Origin: Clostridia bacterium
GTDB taxonomy: Bacteria; Bacillota; Clostridia; Oscillospirales; CAG-272
Length of the DNA stretch: 54,777 nt
NCBI GenBank assembly: GCA_017453205.1
Contig: JAFTKO010000015.1
Location: 1-54,777 of the forward strand
Direction of reading: 5' to 3'
Shown one piece after another: positions 16,963 to 28,153 of the stretch. The translations under genes were made by a program, and so were the position numbers. The notes beneath the pieces are model-generated. The model had not been told where the DNA came from. It did no database searches and saw only the letters and a list, made by a program, of their open reading frames with translations. Position 1 is the stretch's first letter, and the number at the start of each line of letters is the position of its first letter.

Positions 16963-16978
16963 GGTGAATGTCTTTTTT

Positions 16979-17737
16979 GTGGGGGACTTTTGAAAAAGTC
17001 CCCCACACCCCTCAAAACTTTCAACGCATTTTCTATTTTGGTATCACGGGGAATGTCAGTGCCTCTTTCGGTAATTTTCTGACGGTATGGGAATGTTTAT
17101 TCGCGATTTCAAACAATAGCTCCCGCATCCATTTTGGTACCACCACCCAAAATGGACTGCCGAATAAGTATCTTTTTATTAAAATAGTTCGTATAGTCTT
17201 TTTACGTTAGCGAAGTCTATCTAAAAAAGTTCCCCACACCTCTCAAAAACCTTCAACGCATTTTCTGTTTTTGTATGATGGGAATGCCTGTGCCTCTTTC
17301 AGTAATTTTCTGACGGTATGGGAATGTTTGTTCGCGATTTCAAACAACAGCTCCCGCATCCATTTTGGTACCACAACCCAAAATGGTCCACAAAGTTACT
17401 TACTATGTTTAAGATGATGCATAGAGACGGTGTGTGCTGATATACGTTGAAAGTTTTTGAAAGGGGTATGCGGAACTTTTATCAAGTAAGCTTCCTTGAC
17501 GTAAAAAATACGATATTATCTGCTTTTCACGGATGGTTACTGATTCGGCAGTCCGGTTTGGGTGGTGGTACCAAACCGGCTGCGGGAGCGATTGTTTGGA
17601 ACAACGAACAAGCTTTCCCATACCGTCAGAAAGCTAACGAACGAGGCACTGACATTCCCATGATGCCAAGATAGAAAATGCGTTGAAAGTTTTTGAAAGG
17701 GGTGTGGGGAAAACTTTTTCCAAAAAGTTTTCCCCAC
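16979..17737. repeat. Composite of three modular repeat copies between convergent genes
   Basis: Two direct copies (16979-17168 and about 17222-17398) are followed by an inverted copy (17550-17737), with a partial inverted copy at 17438-17545 between them. The outer ends are GTGGGGGAC...GTCCCCCAC (16979-17006), 16 bases after the small membrane protein stop, and GTGGGGAAAAC...GTTTTCCCCAC (17704-17737), 13 bases after the fakA stop. The segment 17480-17545 matches, inverted, the right end of the element at 42330-42400. No gene is visible in 16963-17750. Confidence 0.8.
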
Positions 17738-17750
17738 AAAAACCACATCC

Positions 17751-21599: not shown

Positions 21600-21632
21600 A
21601 TTGTTGATGTCTTTTTAAGGTGGAATTTTTTT

Positions 21633-22020
21633 GTGGGGAAAACTTTTTTAAAAAAGTTTTCCCCACACCCCTTTCAAAAACTTTTAACGCATTTGATATC
21701 TTGGCATCATGGGAATGTCAGTGCCTCTGTCGGTAGTTTTCTGACGGTACGGGAAAGTCTGTTCGCTATTCCAAACAATAGCTCCCGCATCCGGTTTGGT
21801 ACCACCACCCAAACCGGACTGCCGAAGAATAGAATGAAATTTTAAAATTTGTGCGACTTATGCTAATCTCTGATTAAAGTATGGAACTTTTTTCGGGAGC
21901 CCATTTTGGGTTAGTGATCCCAAAATGGGAGCGGGAGCTATTGCTCAGATAAAGCGATCAAACATACACTTGCCGTCAAAAAACTATGGAAAGAAGCACA
22001 AACACTACATACTATCCATA
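21633..22020. repeat. Modular intergenic repeats between convergent genes
   Basis: A full plus-oriented copy (21633-21832) opens with GTGGGGAAAAC...GTTTTCCCCAC (21633-21666), 33 bases after the CHAP-like stop. It is followed by an incomplete inverted copy (about 21895-22015) with CCCATTTTGGGTTAGTG and GCGGGAGCTATTG but no end hairpin. With the trpB terminator this fills 21600-22102; no gene is visible. Confidence 0.75.
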
Positions 22021-22102: not shown

Positions 22103-23476
22103 TCAGTCGATCTTCGGCAGCTTTGCGAAGTTTGCTTGAATCTCCTCGTCGGTGGGGATATAGTCGGTCATGATGCCGTTGTGGAATTTCTCATACGCCA
22201 GCATATCAAAGTAACCCGTGCCGGTCAGACCGAACAGGATGGTTTTTTCCTCGCCTGTTTCCTTGCACTTCAGCGCCTCGTCGATCGCCACACGAATTGC
22301 GTGGGAGCTCTCGGGTGCGGGGAGGATTCCCTCAACGCGTGCGAACTGCTCCGCCGCCTCGAATACCTCGGTCTGCTTGACCGATCTTGCCTCCATCAAG
22401 CCGTCGTCGTACAGTTGAGACAGCGTGGAGCTCATACCGTGGTAGCGCAAGCCGCCCGCATGATTTGCCGACGGAATAAAGCCGCTGCCCAGCGTATACA
22501 TCTTGGCAAGCGGGCAGACCATACCCGTGTCGCAATAGTCATAGGCATACTTGCCGCGCGTCAAGCTGGGACAAGACGCGGGCTCTACTGCGATAAAGTG
22601 ATAGTCGGCTTCCCCGCGCACCTTTTCGCCCATAAAGGGAGCGATCAGACCGCCGAGGTTTGAGCCGCCGCCCGCACAGCCAATGATAATATCGGGCTTG
22701 ATGCCGTATTTATCCATTGCGGCTTTGGTCTCGAGTCCAATGACCGATTGGTGCAGCATGACTTGATTGAGCACACTGCCCAACACATAGCGATAGCCCT
22801 CGGATTTGGTTGCGGTCTCGACCGCTTCGGAGATTGCGCAACCGAGACTGCCCGTGGTACCGGGATGCTCGGCAAGAATCTTTCTGCCCACCTCGGTCTC
22901 CATCGAGGGAGAGGGGGTAACCGACGCGCCGTAGGTGCGCATCACCTCGCGACGGAAGGGCTTTTGCTCGTAGGAGCATTTGACCATGTAGACCTTACAG
23001 TCCAGACCAAAATAAGAGCACGCCATGGAAAGCGCGGTGCCCCACTGCCCTGCTCCCGTCTCGGTAGTCACGCCCTTGAGCCCCTGCTGTTTTGCGTAAT
23101 ACGCCTGTGCAATAGCAGAGTTGAGCTTGTGGCTGCCGCTGGTGTTGTTGCCCTCAAACTTGTAGTAGATCTTTGCGGGCGTCTGCAATTTTTCCTCCAA
23201 GCAGTACGCACGCACCAACGGTGCGGGACGGTACATCTTGTAAAAATCGCGGATCGCCTCGGGAATTTCAAAATACGGGGTGGAGTCGTCCAGCTCCTGC
23301 TTGATCAGCTCGTCGCAGAACACGCCCGAAAGCGCTTGTGCCGTCATCGGCTTGTGCGTAGCGGGATCGAGCAGTGGTGCGGGTTTGTTCTTCATATCGG
23401 CGCGCAGATTGTACCATGCCTTCGGCAGTTCGGATTCCTCCAAATAGATTTTGTAAGGGATTTTTTTGTCAGACAT
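22103..23476 (-). CDS. trpB: Tryptophan synthase beta chain, TrpB2 type
   Basis: A 457-residue PLP enzyme of the longer TrpB2 clade (about 450 residues, against about 400 for TrpB1). The PLP lysine is in N-T-S-G-S-H-K-L-N (near 113), the phosphate-binding loop is GCAGGGSNLGG (near 268), and E-T-G-A-G-Q-W-G holds the catalytic Glu region. TrpB2 enzymes condense indole with serine, often without TrpA. No trpA or other trp gene is adjacent, so it probably salvages indole. A Trp-type T-box leader controls it, and a TrpXYZ-like transporter lies immediately upstream. AAAGGAG sets the start. Confidence 0.93.
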   Translation of the reverse strand: MSDKKIPYKIYLEESELPKAWYNLRADMKNKPAPLLDPATHKPMTAQALSGVFCDELIKQELDDSTPYFEIPEAIRDFYKMYRPAPLVRAYCLEEKLQTPAKIYYKFEGNNTSGSHKLNSAIAQAYYAKQQGLKGVTTETGAGQWGTALSMACSYFGLDCKVYMVKCSYEQKPFRREVMRTYGASVTPSPSMETEVGRKILAEHPGTTGSLGCAISEAVETATKSEGYRYVLGSVLNQVMLHQSVIGLETKAAMDKYGIKPDIIIGCAGGGSNLGGLIAPFMGEKVRGEADYHFIAVEPASCPSLTRGKYAYDYCDTGMVCPLAKMYTLGSGFIPSANHAGGLRYHGMSSTLSQLYDDGLMEARSVKQTEVFEAAEQFARVEGILPAPESSHAIRVAIDEALKCKETGEEKTILFGLTGTGYFDMLAYEKFHNGIMTDYIPTDEEIQANFAKLPKID

Positions 23477-23544: not shown

Positions 23545-23865
23545 AACAAAAAAACCGTCCCTGGCTTTTTGCCGGGACAGGATTAAACTTCCTGCGGTGC
23601 CACCCTGCTTGGCGTATCGCTACGCCCGCTTATGCATACGTCGGTGCTTTTTTGCAACCGTGGATATGCCGACCCTTGATTACGGAGCGCCAACTCCGTC
23701 TTACATACTCCAAAAACGCACTTAAAACCGTATCTGAAACTGCGTCTTTGTTTCCGTTCGCCCTCGGAAGTCCATTCAACGCCATGTTTTCCGCCGTAAT
23801 CACACCGCCTACGGCTCTCTGCGGGAAAAGGGATTGCGCCTACTTACTCTTCTTCATCGGTTTTC
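23545..23865 (-). promoter_or_regulatory. T-box riboswitch (tryptophan specifier) upstream of trpB
   Basis: On the minus strand the leader has the early GATGAAGAAGAGTA segment, a stem I with GAATGGACTTCCGAGGG (specifier TGG = Trp codon, plus positions 23772-23774), the T-box core GGGTGGCACCGCAGG (near 23590-23606), and a terminator GTCCCGGC-aaaaa-GCCAGGGAC with seven T (to 23548). Uncharged tRNA-Trp would stabilise the antiterminator and allow trpB transcription. The specifier was assigned by position relative to the conserved GGACTTCCGAGGG context, not by folding. Confidence 0.88.
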
Positions 23866-23868
23866 TGT

Positions 23869-23897: not shown

Positions 23898-23944
23898 GTC
23901 CTTTCGGGCAAAAACTCACGGCAAATTGTAATCAAATGTAACCA

Positions 23945-24146
23945 TGTGGACCATTTTGGGTGGTGGAAACCGCCTTCTCCAACGGAGAAGGTGTAATGGT
24001 TTGCGGGAGCGATTATTTGGAATAACGTACTCACATTCCCATACCGTCAGCAAACTACCGAAAGAGGTACAAGCTTTCCCGTGATAAAATATAAAATGCG
24101 TTAAAAGTTTTGAGAGGTGTGGGGGACTTTTTCAAAAGTCCCCCAC
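23945..24146 (-). repeat. Modular intergenic repeat, long form
   Basis: A reverse-oriented copy ending in GTGGGGGACTTTT...AAAAGTCCCCCAC (24119-24146), 11 bases after the stop of the ABC ATPase gene. Its distal hairpin carries the extra stem CCTTCTCCAACGGAGAAGG. With the T-box it accounts for 23477-24157. Confidence 0.78.
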
Positions 24147-24157
24147 AAAAAAACTTA

Positions 24158-24973
24158 TCATCCCAACAATGCGCGGTCATTGACAAACTCGCTGCCGCTG
24201 GTTTGGGAGAATTTTTCGAGAAGAATCTCGACGGTAAGCTTTTTCTTTTCCTCGCCCGCAATATCAAGGATGATATGACCGTCGTGCATCATGATGAGGC
24301 GGTTGCCGTGAGCAATGGCATCGCGCATATTATGTGTGACCATGAGGGCGGTGAGGTGGTTCTCCTCAATCAATTGATCGGTAAGAGAAAGCACCTTTGC
24401 CGCGGTTTTGGGATCGAGTGCGGCAGTATGTTCGTCCAACAACAGGAGCTTGGGACGCTGTAGGGTCGCCATCAAGAGCGTCAGCGCCTGTCTCTGACCG
24501 CCCGAAAGCAAGCCCACCTTGGTGCTCATGCGGTCCTCGAGCCCGAGGTCCAGCATTTTGAGCTGTTCGCGGTAAGAGGCGCGCTCTCCCGAGGTAAGTC
24601 CCCATTTGAGTGTGCGGAGCTTTCCACGGCGTGCGGCAAGCGCCAAATTTTCGTCGATCTGCATATTGGAGGCGGTCCCCATGTTGGGATCTTGAAAAAC
24701 ACGTCCGAGATATTTGGCACGCTTGTGCTCCGAGGTCGCGGTCACATCCACACCATCGACCGAGATCGTACCGCCGTCGACCTTCCACACGCCCGCAATG
24801 GCGTTGAGCATGGTGGATTTTCCCGCGCCGTTACCGCCGATGATGGTGACAAAATCGCCGGGGGCGAGGTCGAGATCGATGCCCTTGAGCACGTCCTTTT
24901 GATTGACGGTGCCGCGGTGAAAGGATTTTTGAATGCCTTTGAGGGAAAGCATGGGAGTAAGCGGTTCAGACAT
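24158..24973 (-). CDS. ABC transporter ATPase, TrpZ-like
   Basis: A 271-residue ATP-binding subunit with Walker A GGNGAGKST (near 49), Q-loop FQDPNMGT, signature LLSGGQRQALTLL, Walker B LLLLDEHTAAL (H rather than P after E, common in this branch) and the switch His in MVTHNM. GGAGGG precedes the ATG at 24973, which overlaps the permease gene by 8 bases. It belongs to the transporter class found with TrpX-type binding lipoproteins and Trp T-boxes; tryptophan or a related aromatic is the likely cargo. Confidence 0.9.
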   Translation of the reverse strand: MSEPLTPMLSLKGIQKSFHRGTVNQKDVLKGIDLDLAPGDFVTIIGGNGAGKSTMLNAIAGVWKVDGGTISVDGVDVTATSEHKRAKYLGRVFQDPNMGTASNMQIDENLALAARRGKLRTLKWGLTSGERASYREQLKMLDLGLEDRMSTKVGLLSGGQRQALTLLMATLQRPKLLLLDEHTAALDPKTAAKVLSLTDQLIEENHLTALMVTHNMRDAIAHGNRLIMMHDGHIILDIAGEEKKKLTVEILLEKFSQTSGSEFVNDRALLG

Positions 24974-25904
24974 TGCCTTTCCCTCCTTTTGCAGATTTTG
25001 CGCGGACTTTGCTTGCAAAAGAAGTTAGGCAAAGCGCCACAATCACAACAACAGCAGTCATCACCTTGAGGTCGGTAGAAGGCATTCCGGAAAAAATAAC
25101 AAGAGATACCACCAAACGATAGATCACCGATCCCACAACAATACCGATCAGCATAATGGCAAAACGCTTGGTGCGTGCAAAAATAGCCTCACCGATGATA
25201 ATCGAAGCTAAACCAATCACGATGGAACCGACGCCCATATTAACATCGGAATATCCTTGATATTGGCTCAACAACGCACCGGAAACAGCAATCAAGCCGT
25301 TGGAAAGCGCCAAACCGATGATTTTGGTCAAATCGGTATCGATCCCCTGTGCGCGGCACATTTTTTCGTTGTTACCTGTGGCACGAATCGAGGAACCGAG
25401 CTCCGTACCAAAGAACCAGTAAAGTATCGCGATAATTCCCACACAAAAAATCACACCGATCAAAAGCGCCGCGTTCGTCTTACCCATATTCAAAAGTTCA
25501 CCCAGTTTGGAACTGCTGAAATCGGTATACAAATTGTCAATACGCAAAAGTGAAAGATTTGCTGTTCCCTGCTTCTCCGTAGCAATACTCATGATATGAA
25601 TATTGATAGAATAAAGCGAGATCATTGTCAAAATACCGGCAAGGATCGGCGGAATTTTCATCTTGGTATGTAAAACGCCTGTGATCCCCCCCGCAATGCA
25701 ACCCGCGAGGAAAGCGATCAATACGGCAAGCCAAGGATTGACTTCTTTCCAAAGCAAAAGCGCTGTAACCGAGGCGCCCAAAGTAATACAGCCCTCACAG
25801 GTCAGATCGGCAATATCCAACACACGGTAAGAAACATAAACTCCCAGTGCAAGGATCGCCCAAATCAGCCCTTGTGTCGTGCCCGACAGCAAAATATCTA
25901 CCAT
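24966..25904 (-). CDS. ABC transporter permease, TrpY-like
   Basis: A 312-residue membrane protein of the branched-chain/ribose permease superfamily with about eight to nine helices. Recognisable parts are the LADLTCEG-like IADLTCEGCITLGA (near 32), the cytoplasmic loop TELGSSIRATGNNEKMCRAQGI (quoted in part as RATGNNEKMCRAQGI, near 175) and the late GVGSIVIGLASIIIGEA. GGAGATG precedes the ATG at 25904; the in-frame upstream extension lies in the spacer after the binding-protein gene. It works with the overlapping ATPase gene and the binding lipoprotein 101 bases upstream. Confidence 0.9.
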   Translation of the reverse strand: MVDILLSGTTQGLIWAILALGVYVSYRVLDIADLTCEGCITLGASVTALLLWKEVNPWLAVLIAFLAGCIAGGITGVLHTKMKIPPILAGILTMISLYSINIHIMSIATEKQGTANLSLLRIDNLYTDFSSSKLGELLNMGKTNAALLIGVIFCVGIIAILYWFFGTELGSSIRATGNNEKMCRAQGIDTDLTKIIGLALSNGLIAVSGALLSQYQGYSDVNMGVGSIVIGLASIIIGEAIFARTKRFAIMLIGIVVGSVIYRLVVSLVIFSGMPSTDLKVMTAVVVIVALCLTSFASKVRAKSAKGGKGNV

Positions 25905-26005
25905 TGTTTGATCATCTCCTTTCAAAACGTACACTGTGAGGCTTGCCAAACAAGTTTGCAAGCCTCACACAGTTAACTTAATTTTGGTATGGCTGATATT
26001 GTAAA

Positions 26006-27049
26006 TTATTCGCCGATGTTGAGCGAATGCACATTTGCAACACCGTTTGCAAGCGTGTTGTCGGTGGGGATGTAAACAGCATCAACTCCCTCTGCTTTCA
26101 AGGCGATGAAAGCCGACTGGATATCATTGATGTCACCAATGCCCTTGTCAACATAGGAGTAACCCTTTGCATTGCACTCGGCAATACCGAGGTTGATCTG
26201 ATAAACAGAGTTGGACTCGGCAGAGGTATAGAGGAAACCGATCTTGATATCATCCTTACCAAGCAACTCGCCGATCAGATCGACCTGCAAAGCAACAGGG
26301 TTGATATCAGACACACCGCTGACATTTGCACCGGGCGCCTCAAGAGAAGCCACCAGCTTTGCCTCAACGGGGTTGGTAACAGCATTAAAGAGCACGGGAA
26401 TATCCGTCTCTGCGGTTGCCTCTGCGGCAGCCTGTGCTGAGGAGGTCGCAATCGCATAGATCAAATCGACATTCTGTGCAACAAAACCGGTTGCGATGGT
26501 CACATTGTTTGCCTGCTCGTTGCTGGCATTCTCATCCAAAACCCGAAAGGTCTTGTTGGCAGCTTTCATACGAACAGAAAGCTGATCCTGGAAGCCCTCA
26601 TTGGTCTGGTCGAGCGCAACGTGCTGAACCAACTGAAGGATACCGATGGTAAAATCGGCGCCGTCTGTCACAATTGCAGAGGTCTCACGGGTGACCTTTT
26701 GGGTACCGGTGGCGTTTGCACGGTCAAGGACCGACTGAGGAATGGTAAATCCGATCTCTGCGGCAACCTCTTCGTTGACATAAAGCGCAGGATTGGGATC
26801 GGACTGCACAGCCATGGTGGAAACATCTGCATTGTTGAGGAGGATGTCGGCAGCCATATCACCGGCTTTGACACCCAGTGCATAATAATCCACACCGTAG
26901 GTTGCAACACCGCAGACCTCGGTCATACCGGTCTCGCCGCAAACAATCGGCAAATTATATGCCTTTTGACCGCAGGAAGCGAACGTGAGTGTACCGATCG
27001 CACAAAGCAAAACGGCAAGTGTGAGGGTGAGAAGCTTTTTGAGTTTCAT
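26006..27049 (-). CDS. TrpX-like ABC substrate-binding lipoprotein with circularly permuted order
   Basis: A 347-residue lipoprotein (lipobox F-A-S-C, Cys26). It belongs to the ABC_sub_bind/TrpX family, whose usual order is a first strand (xxTIGILQLVQHxALD), ATxxAQAA, the PGxNVSGVSD loop, YIPTDNT, and last a segment with (I/L)PIxxGExGM...GVATYG...YYxLG...IP. Here that last segment comes first (residues 31-110: LPIVCGETGM, GVATYGVDYYALG, FTIPQSVL). A linker (111-131) follows, then the normal start DFTIGILQLVQHVALD, and the chain stops at residue 347 just after YIPTDNTLAN plus one helix. The sequence end (HSLNIGE) would join naturally to YNLPIVCG. AAAGGAG precedes the ATG and the frame is unbroken. 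Cargo is probably tryptophan or a similar compound. Confidence 0.85.
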   Translation of the reverse strand: MKLKKLLTLTLAVLLCAIGTLTFASCGQKAYNLPIVCGETGMTEVCGVATYGVDYYALGVKAGDMAADILLNNADVSTMAVQSDPNPALYVNEEVAAEIGFTIPQSVLDRANATGTQKVTRETSAIVTDGADFTIGILQLVQHVALDQTNEGFQDQLSVRMKAANKTFRVLDENASNEQANNVTIATGFVAQNVDLIYAIATSSAQAAAEATAETDIPVLFNAVTNPVEAKLVASLEAPGANVSGVSDINPVALQVDLIGELLGKDDIKIGFLYTSAESNSVYQINLGIAECNAKGYSYVDKGIGDINDIQSAFIALKAEGVDAVYIPTDNTLANGVANVHSLNIGE

Positions 27050-27111
27050 TTTCGGAATCTCCTTTGATGTTTTTTTTGCATATTTTTCAAGGTGTGTGAA
27101 AAATATGTTTT

Positions 27112-27140
27112 ATTTTAACATATTTTTGCCCAAATGTCAA
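27112..27140 (-). promoter_or_regulatory. Promoter of the TrpX-like transporter operon
   Basis: Minus strand: TTGACA (27135-27140), 17-base spacer, TAAAAT (27112-27117). No T-box is seen in the short leader, so the transporter is not under the same control as trpB. Confidence 0.7.
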
Positions 27141-27212
27141 TAGAATTTTGAATAATGTTGAAATTAAAATGAATATGTAAACAAACTTTTTACAAAGTTT
27201 AAACCGCAGACC

Positions 27213-27241
27213 TTGACAAAAGCCCAAAACTCTGCTATAAT
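27213..27241 (+). promoter_or_regulatory. Promoter of the small lipoprotein gene
   Basis: TTGACA (27213-27218), 17-base spacer, TATAAT (27236-27241). It is back to back with the transporter promoter, about 70 bases apart. Confidence 0.88.
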
Positions 27242-27297
27242 GATAACGATGCTGAACCGACTTAGGAAGGCAAATACAAAAGAAAGGAGTTATCATC

Positions 27298-27880: not shown

Positions 27881-27935
27881 ACAAAATCCGCATTCTTACG
27901 AAAGCGGATTTTGTTTGGCGCACCATGGCGGACTC
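27881..27935 (-). pseudogene. Remnant of a tRNA 3' end with its own terminator
   Basis: Positions 27915-27935 are identical over 21 bases to the 3' end of the intact tRNA-Arg (28076-28096), including the CCA end, acceptor strand and part of the T arm. The rest of the tRNA is missing. Directly downstream (minus strand) is an 11-bp terminator stem ACAAAATCCGC / GCGGATTTTGT (27881-27914), placed like the terminator after the intact tRNA. Confidence 0.65.
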
Positions 27936-28068: not shown

Positions 28069-28076
28069 TTTTTTGT

Positions 28077-28153
28077 TGGCGCACCATGGCGGACTCGAAC
28101 CGTCGACACCAAGCGTCGGAGGCTTGTGCTCTATCCATCTGGGCTAATGGTGC
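28077..28153 (-). tRNA. tRNA-Arg (anticodon CCG), CCA end encoded
   Basis: Minus strand: acceptor stem GCACCAT / ATGGTGC, D arm GCCC...GAGC (non-perfect), anticodon arm CAAGC-CTCCGAC-GCTTG with loop positions 34-36 = CCG, T arm GACGG-TTCGAGT-CCGCC, discriminator G and encoded CCA. The total is 77 bases with CCA. It reads the Arg codon CGG. Confidence 0.93.

Follow-up and report, generated by a model that had tools for sequence, protein, structure and literature searches.

Can a transporter's binding protein be cut, rejoined in another order and still serve its transporter? This question is raised by a locus in a 54,777-nt stretch of DNA from a Clostridia bacterium (contig JAFTKO010000015.1; the whole stretch is called the window here). 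On its minus strand, an open reading frame of 347 amino acids with an ATG start (26006..27049) encodes a putative lipoprotein, which a preliminary description had taken for a circularly permuted, TrpX-type binding protein of an ATP-binding cassette (ABC) transporter. The protein is a natural and conserved permutation of the ABC_sub_bind family (PF04392), and we consider it likely that it binds an amino acid for the adjacent permease and ATPase.

In translation, the protein starts with a signal peptide (residues 1-25, 26975..27049) with a lipobox (...ASC), and the predicted lipidation site Cys26 (26972..26974) is invariant in 13 aligned permuted proteins. Past Cys26, the residue order is LPIVCGETGM...GVATYGVDYYALG...FTIPQSVL, a linker, and then DFTIGILQLVQHVALD... 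through YIPTDNTLANGVANVHSLNIGE. These motifs sit where the preliminary description had placed them, and the reading frame is intact and preceded by a Shine-Dalgarno-like AAGGAG (27059..27064, minus strand), as it had also noted. Segment B (residues 31-110, 26720..26959) is the normally C-terminal part of an ABC_sub_bind protein moved to the N-terminal side; according to PF04392 profile positions 208-291 and PDB alignments, it runs from C-lobe beta4 onwards, and it includes E39 and Y55. A new linker (residues 111-131, 26657..26719) bridges the former C- and N-termini, with V119, R121, A125 and G130 invariant among the 13 aligned sequences. Segment A (residues 132-347, 26009..26656), the normally N-terminal part corresponding to profile positions 2-204, comprises the N-lobe and the first three C-lobe strands, and the chain stops past the helix that follows IPTDN. 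The lobe names of both segments are assigned by the Type I plan.

PF04392 was the sole Pfam family matched at E 1e-3, and it was matched in two stretches. In a genome profile search, profile positions 2-204 fell at 26647-26027 and positions 208-291 at 26965-26711, so the collinear domain order is not kept, the end of the profile preceding its beginning. The protein scored 169.6 bits, above the curated cutoff of 25.9. The domain is thus cut at about profile position 204-208, after what should be the third C-lobe strand. A sequence search among solved structures found three relatives (6HNI, 3LKV and 3LFT), each of which aligned in two exchanged stretches (E 2e-40 to 1e-38), where query residue 134 onwards corresponds to the start of the solved chains and query residue 30 or so onwards to their end. 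As judged from its sequence, the window protein is an ABC_sub_bind member with permuted topology. The profile and structural alignments thus bear out the permutation proposed at the outset, as one family appears in swapped order and not two unrelated partial domains.

A structure prediction, another check proposed in the preliminary description, gave a single ordered fold. The AlphaFold2 monomer model had a predicted local distance difference test score (pLDDT) of 89.1 and a predicted template modelling score of 0.81, and was confident from about residue 31 on. Mean pLDDT in the linker was 78 at residues 111-120 and 96 at 121-130, and the model has strands and a helix (332-344) near the chain end. 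Structural alignment was performed by re-aligning Foldseek's top 1000 chains with VIA-align, rows within 1 Z being regarded as ties. The model aligned to the tyrosine-binding lipoprotein CD0873 of Clostridioides difficile and other Type I substrate-binding proteins, and the window protein is predicted to have the Type I bilobed fold. Normal-order chains (6HNJ, 6HNI, 3LFT, 3LKV) aligned to the model over residues 131-346 only, whereas TpMglB-2 of Treponema pallidum (6BGC, 6BGD, 5JX2) aligned end to end over 254-256 residues.

The same order recurs in other genomes. A pattern scan of an 84,980-species collection yielded 13 loci, each matched over at least query residues 25-346 with 63-75% identity and in a single order. 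Other genomes were sampled from the window's family, order and class, with overlap between the samples; whole-genome searches at a threshold of E 1e-60 gave matches in 15 of 394, 3 of 393 and 0 of 390 of these, respectively, and could miss more divergent permuted forms elsewhere. All of these matches belong to the window's own family. Once identical proteins were removed, the permuted set, which includes the window protein, numbered 19 distinct sequences from 19 genomes, all with the lipobox pattern. When half-protein queries were used as a separate test, the same 19 scored as permuted and 53 distinct others as normal-order, the latter being a biased sample made of the best matches to the queries among the fetched loci. 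Swapped PF04392 stretches were found in all 16 permuted genomes searched, and all 13 members of the permuted alignment matched PF04392 at E 1. The homologues sought in the preliminary description therefore exist in 18 other species, with frames intact in 17. The remaining one (L043/L058; such L and G numbers are our labels for loci and genomes) is frameshifted near its 3′ end. Incidentally, its record is named Candidatus Colimorpha enterica, of the Bacteroidota according to NCBI, whereas the genome set places G635, a genome with an identical protein, in the window's own family.

A quick tree built from the reordered proteins separates the 19 permuted ones from the others by a branch with a support of 100 in the Shimodaira-Hasegawa-like approximate likelihood ratio test (SH-aLRT) and a stem of 1.04; it came with a warning about long branches. 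The ratio of nonsynonymous to synonymous substitution rates (dN/dS) was 0.07-0.12 in segment B, 0.02-0.12 in segment A and 0.09-0.64 in the linker among pairs with finite dS, several of which are near saturation. Segments A and B are both under purifying selection, according to these sequence comparisons. Permuted and normal-order PF04392 genes share a genome in 7 of the 16 permuted genomes searched. No form intermediate between the A-B and B-A orders turned up among the loci examined, where no search was dedicated to intermediates. A 450-codon open frame in G053, considered as a possible B-A-B intermediate, turned out to be a normal-order gene whose frame extends further upstream. As proposed in the preliminary description, the gene may have arisen by tandem duplication.

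The window gene is followed directly on its 3′ side by genes for an ABC permease (BPD_transp_2, 24966..25961, minus strand; PF02653, E 1.3e-31) and an ABC ATPase (24158..25018, minus strand; PF00005, E 2e-27), the latter listed from TTG, while its true start may be internal. The operon is thus intact, as had been stated from the start. The same two genes directly follow the permuted gene in all 12 loci L031-L042, with identities of 51-77% for the permeases and 63-74% for the ATPases. At L046, L052, L053, L055 and L057, the permease is directly downstream and a partial ATPase lies at the locus edge; the L043 contig ends too early to show them. In a permease tree, a branch (SH-aLRT 89) sets 18 permeases of permuted operons apart, L034 being long-branched. 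The permeases of the five normal-order operons compared, which come from permuted genomes, share 33-38% identity with that of the window. Permuted lipoprotein, permease and ATPase would work together.

For the substrate, leader RNAs of the relatives are informative. A T-box lies directly upstream of 10 of the 19 permuted genes, six being at Rfam gathering score (L031, L032, L035, L036, L042, L052) and four below it (L033, L034, L038, L040; E 4.8e-18 to 6.7e-12). The specifier was read as UAC in L032, L035, L038, L040 and L052 and as UUC in L031, L034, L036 and L042, and L033 was ambiguous; none of the nine read is UGG. Additional T-box-like motifs, not called by Rfam, were recognized by eye at L039, L055 and L057 (UAC) and at L046 (UUC). 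Rfam called no T-box for the window gene, L037, L041, L043 or L053. Scans below gathering score covered the window, L033, L034, L037, L038, L039 (down to E 1e-6) and L040, and scans at gathering score only were made for L041, L043, L046, L053, L055 and L057. In a normal-order control of 20 loci, seven T-boxes were called, five of them with UGG (L013, L018, L024, L059, L062), one with UAC (L014) and one with UUC (L019). Two genomes allow both kinds to be read: L059 (G500) and L062 (G362) have UGG, and the permuted genes of the same genomes, L052 and L044, have UAC, the L044 protein being identical to L035's. Because the relatives' permuted genes have Tyr/Phe specifiers and the normal-order copies of these two genomes Trp ones, the substrate is probably not tryptophan. 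The T-box bulge UGGU was also considered as a sign of Tyr/Phe tRNA, but was dropped because UGG-specifier L013, L018, L024 and L062 share it.

CD0873 (6HNI/6HNJ/6HNK), an ABC_sub_bind lipoprotein, is the best match among solved chains. The published sources used here are PMC4990184, PMC9382623 and PMC6816091. CD0873 is reported to bind tyrosine, Glu-263 bonding the ligand hydroxyl and Tyr-279 hindering tryptophan, and these two residues are said to set the side-chain preference; the phenylalanine binder 3LKV has Ala at the Glu-263 position, and the tryptophan binder 3LFT has Ala and Gln at the two positions (PMC6816091). E39 and Y55 of the window protein align with this pair and are found in all 19 permuted proteins. 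Like CD0873, with which it is 38% identical over residues 131-346, the window protein has the E/Y pair and is an importer lipoprotein. Unlike it, CD0873 is in normal order with its anchor before N-lobe beta1, and aligns in sequence order to the segment A part of the model only. The other family motif residues chosen for comparison, Q139, H143, D147, T202, D248, E278, N280, D330 and N331, are identical in the permuted proteins and CD0873, except that D330 and N331 are missing in L043 in the frame used. We take these residues to serve in the ligand pocket. The best reading is an importer of tyrosine (or Tyr/Phe), distinct from a tryptophan system in the same cell. Auxotrophy for Tyr/Phe as its driver is unsupported: of the 16 permuted genomes, 13 have a match above cutoff to PF02153 (TyrA) and 15 to PF00800 (PDT), although in two of these 15, the window genome and G469, the match is short and weak. 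There was no TyrA match in the window genome, which is 73% complete.

Several observations weigh against the protein being a permuted receptor for tyrosine or phenylalanine. First, alignments of some normal-order sugar-binding proteins to the model also span both of its segments, over fewer residues (154-222), which the pseudo-symmetric lobes would allow. Second, E39/Y55 are also present in the normal-order copies with UGG T-boxes, so the pair fits tyrosine without being specific to it, and it was dropped as proof of tyrosine. Third, all specifiers are readings by eye, with a one-base shift relative to the Rfam alignment applied in L035, L036 and also L019 of the control, and the L042 T-box is without the usual GAA. 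Fourth, no T-box was found upstream of the window's own permuted gene. Finally, the lipid tether has a median length of 8 residues (7-14, n = 19) in permuted and 11 (7-36, n = 52 of 53) in normal-order proteins. Because these ranges overlap, they give no sign that the permuted proteins need to be anchored in a special way, and a shorter lipid tether as the cause of permutation is unsupported.

The alternative that survives best, improbable as we judge it, is a permuted TrpX that binds tryptophan, the Tyr/Phe T-boxes of its relatives being misread or not mirroring the substrate. NF041285, the TrpX equivalog, is the only NCBIfam family listed (E 9.2e-68), the window has a TrpB-like gene 0.7 kb further downstream that is preceded by a UGG T-box, and the missing T-box and the E39/Y55 pair of UGG-regulated copies fit this alternative as well. 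However, the score of 228.7 bits does not reach the NF041285 cutoff of 390, UGG is found in 0 of 9 permuted specifiers versus 5 of 7 normal-order ones, the best-scoring solved relative binds tyrosine, and 3LFT differs at both positions of the pair. The permutation may itself lower the NF041285 score, and permuted proteins may be under-scored against equivalog cutoffs generally. With this caution, the label 'TrpX-type' of the preliminary description is not supported in its tryptophan sense.

For a Tyr/Phe importer, the course of the permuted chain may be pictured as follows. It would start at C-lobe beta4, run through the old C-terminus, the linker of about 20 residues and the old N-terminus, and finish with the helix that follows the third C-lobe strand. 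Folded together, segments A and B would form a single cleft between two lobes that closes on the bound amino acid, and the closed lipoprotein would then pass this ligand on to the permease and ATPase of the neighbouring genes. The lipid anchor would emerge from the C-lobe and not the N-lobe, immediately in front of beta4 and 13 residues before a residue of the ligand site, while the linker would probably add a fourth inter-lobe crossing. The swapped order, its conservation, the single clade, the operon, the confident prediction of one fold and the relatives' T-boxes were observed; from these comparisons we infer what the substrate is, which lobe is which, where the anchor leaves, the added crossing and that transport works. 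The permutation could affect hinge motion or docking on the permease.

Instead of folding back on its own chain, segment B could complete the C-lobe of a neighbour, a domain-swapped dimer or longer chain being the functional form. The sequence and tree data are compatible with this, and AlphaFold2 was run as a monomer only, but the confident monomer model, the invariant linker residues and the well-ordered prediction at 121-130 render it quite unlikely. Less likely still is recruitment to an adhesin or sensor role with transport being secondary; CD0873 is reported also as an adhesin, but permease and ATPase adjoin the permuted gene in all 12 loci L031-L042. Lastly, an assembly error or decayed gene has a negligible chance, despite the draft state of the window genome, the frameshifted homologue and the absence of the gene from congeners, since 18 other species-level genomes have the identical swapped order (17 in intact frames), which also settles the worry about artefactual junctions, and both segments are under purifying selection.

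The window's own copy lies at a variable site. At E 1e-3, none of the 34 congeners searched (61-97% complete) had a permuted match. One of them, G009, has a TrpB-like neighbour 92% identical to the window's as well as the small lipoprotein gene from the other flank of the operon (75% DNA identity). Between these shared flanks, G009 has unrelated small open reading frames over 1.7 kb (L141, 7229-8895) and the window has the ABC operon over 3.4 kb (23904-27283). Because the flanks are the same and the contents differ, the operon is placed at a variable site; its loss from other genomes, or its horizontal acquisition without the T-box, may account for this. A near-consensus promoter-like site, TTGACA-17-TAAAAT (27112..27140, read 27140-27112, minus strand), lies upstream of the permuted gene; the scan found 6 such sites versus 3.9 in shuffles, making this weak evidence.

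Interspersed repeats of about 150-200 nt occur nearby in both orientations (16973-17170, 17232-17382, 17538-17742, 21628-21826, 24002-24152), the last of these copies lying immediately beyond the 3′ end of the ABC operon; L141 contains related sequence. A 27-nt repeat (93%) is present at 27909-27935 and 28070-28096, 161 bp apart, and the latter copy overlaps the 3′ end of a tRNA-Arg(CCG) gene (28077-28153, minus strand); it is possibly an integration trace or a tRNA remnant. The TrpB-like gene (22103-23476) is preceded by a T-box at 23570-23866 (minus strand) with 81.3 bits against a gathering score of 93 (E 5.4e-18) and a UGG specifier by eye.

Besides CD0873, two known systems are the closest for comparison. 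TrpX of Streptococcus suis is encoded in an operon of binding protein, permease and ATPase (trpXYZ) with a leader T-box, as are permuted relatives, but its specifier is reported as UGG (Trp), while theirs are UAC or UUC or they lack a T-box (PMC9382623). TrpX was modelled there on 3LFT, a normal-order chain, and it is compared here through that report rather than by its own sequence. TpMglB-2 (Tp0684) is reported as a permuted glucose-binding lipoprotein, 'Type Ic' in its authors' terms, with relatives in treponemes and Gram-positive bacteria. The window protein has a permuted Type I chain order like TpMglB-2, as in the end-to-end alignment, but TpMglB-2 binds sugar, has 14% identity and is cut in the N-lobe, not in what should be the C-lobe. 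It was absent among the seven matches of a profile search at E 1. On the other hand, 7 of the 13 members of the permuted alignment weakly match Peripla_BP_4 (PF13407; best E 6.7e-7), so a distant superfamily tie exists. Because the cuts are in opposite lobes, at apparently pseudo-symmetric places, the two permutations look independent.

Permutation of Type I lipoproteins is therefore already known from the TpMglB-2 family, and the ABC_sub_bind case with a C-lobe cut, as read from sequence, appears new: no report of either a permuted ABC_sub_bind protein or a C-lobe cut was found among the matches listed from open-licence PMC literature without preprints. Stable natural permutations of transporter binding proteins appear rare in the literature, TpMglB-2 being the only family among those matches. 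A second case, from another sequence family and in the opposite lobe, turns a curiosity into a comparison, in which one can ask whether the order of the chain and the place of its anchor influence how the protein closes and passes its ligand to the permease. The gut-bacterial surface protein is probably still the receptor of a tyrosine or phenylalanine importer. More tentatively, and with the balance somewhat against it, the TpMglB-2 family and this aromatic amino-acid family may have been permuted independently and pseudo-symmetrically, just before beta4 of opposite lobes, converging on one topology with a beta4 lipid anchor and a fourth inter-lobe strap. If so, anchor placement or a strapped hinge would have been selected for, and cells with a permuted Tyr/Phe receptor and a normal-order Trp receptor would be natural paired controls.
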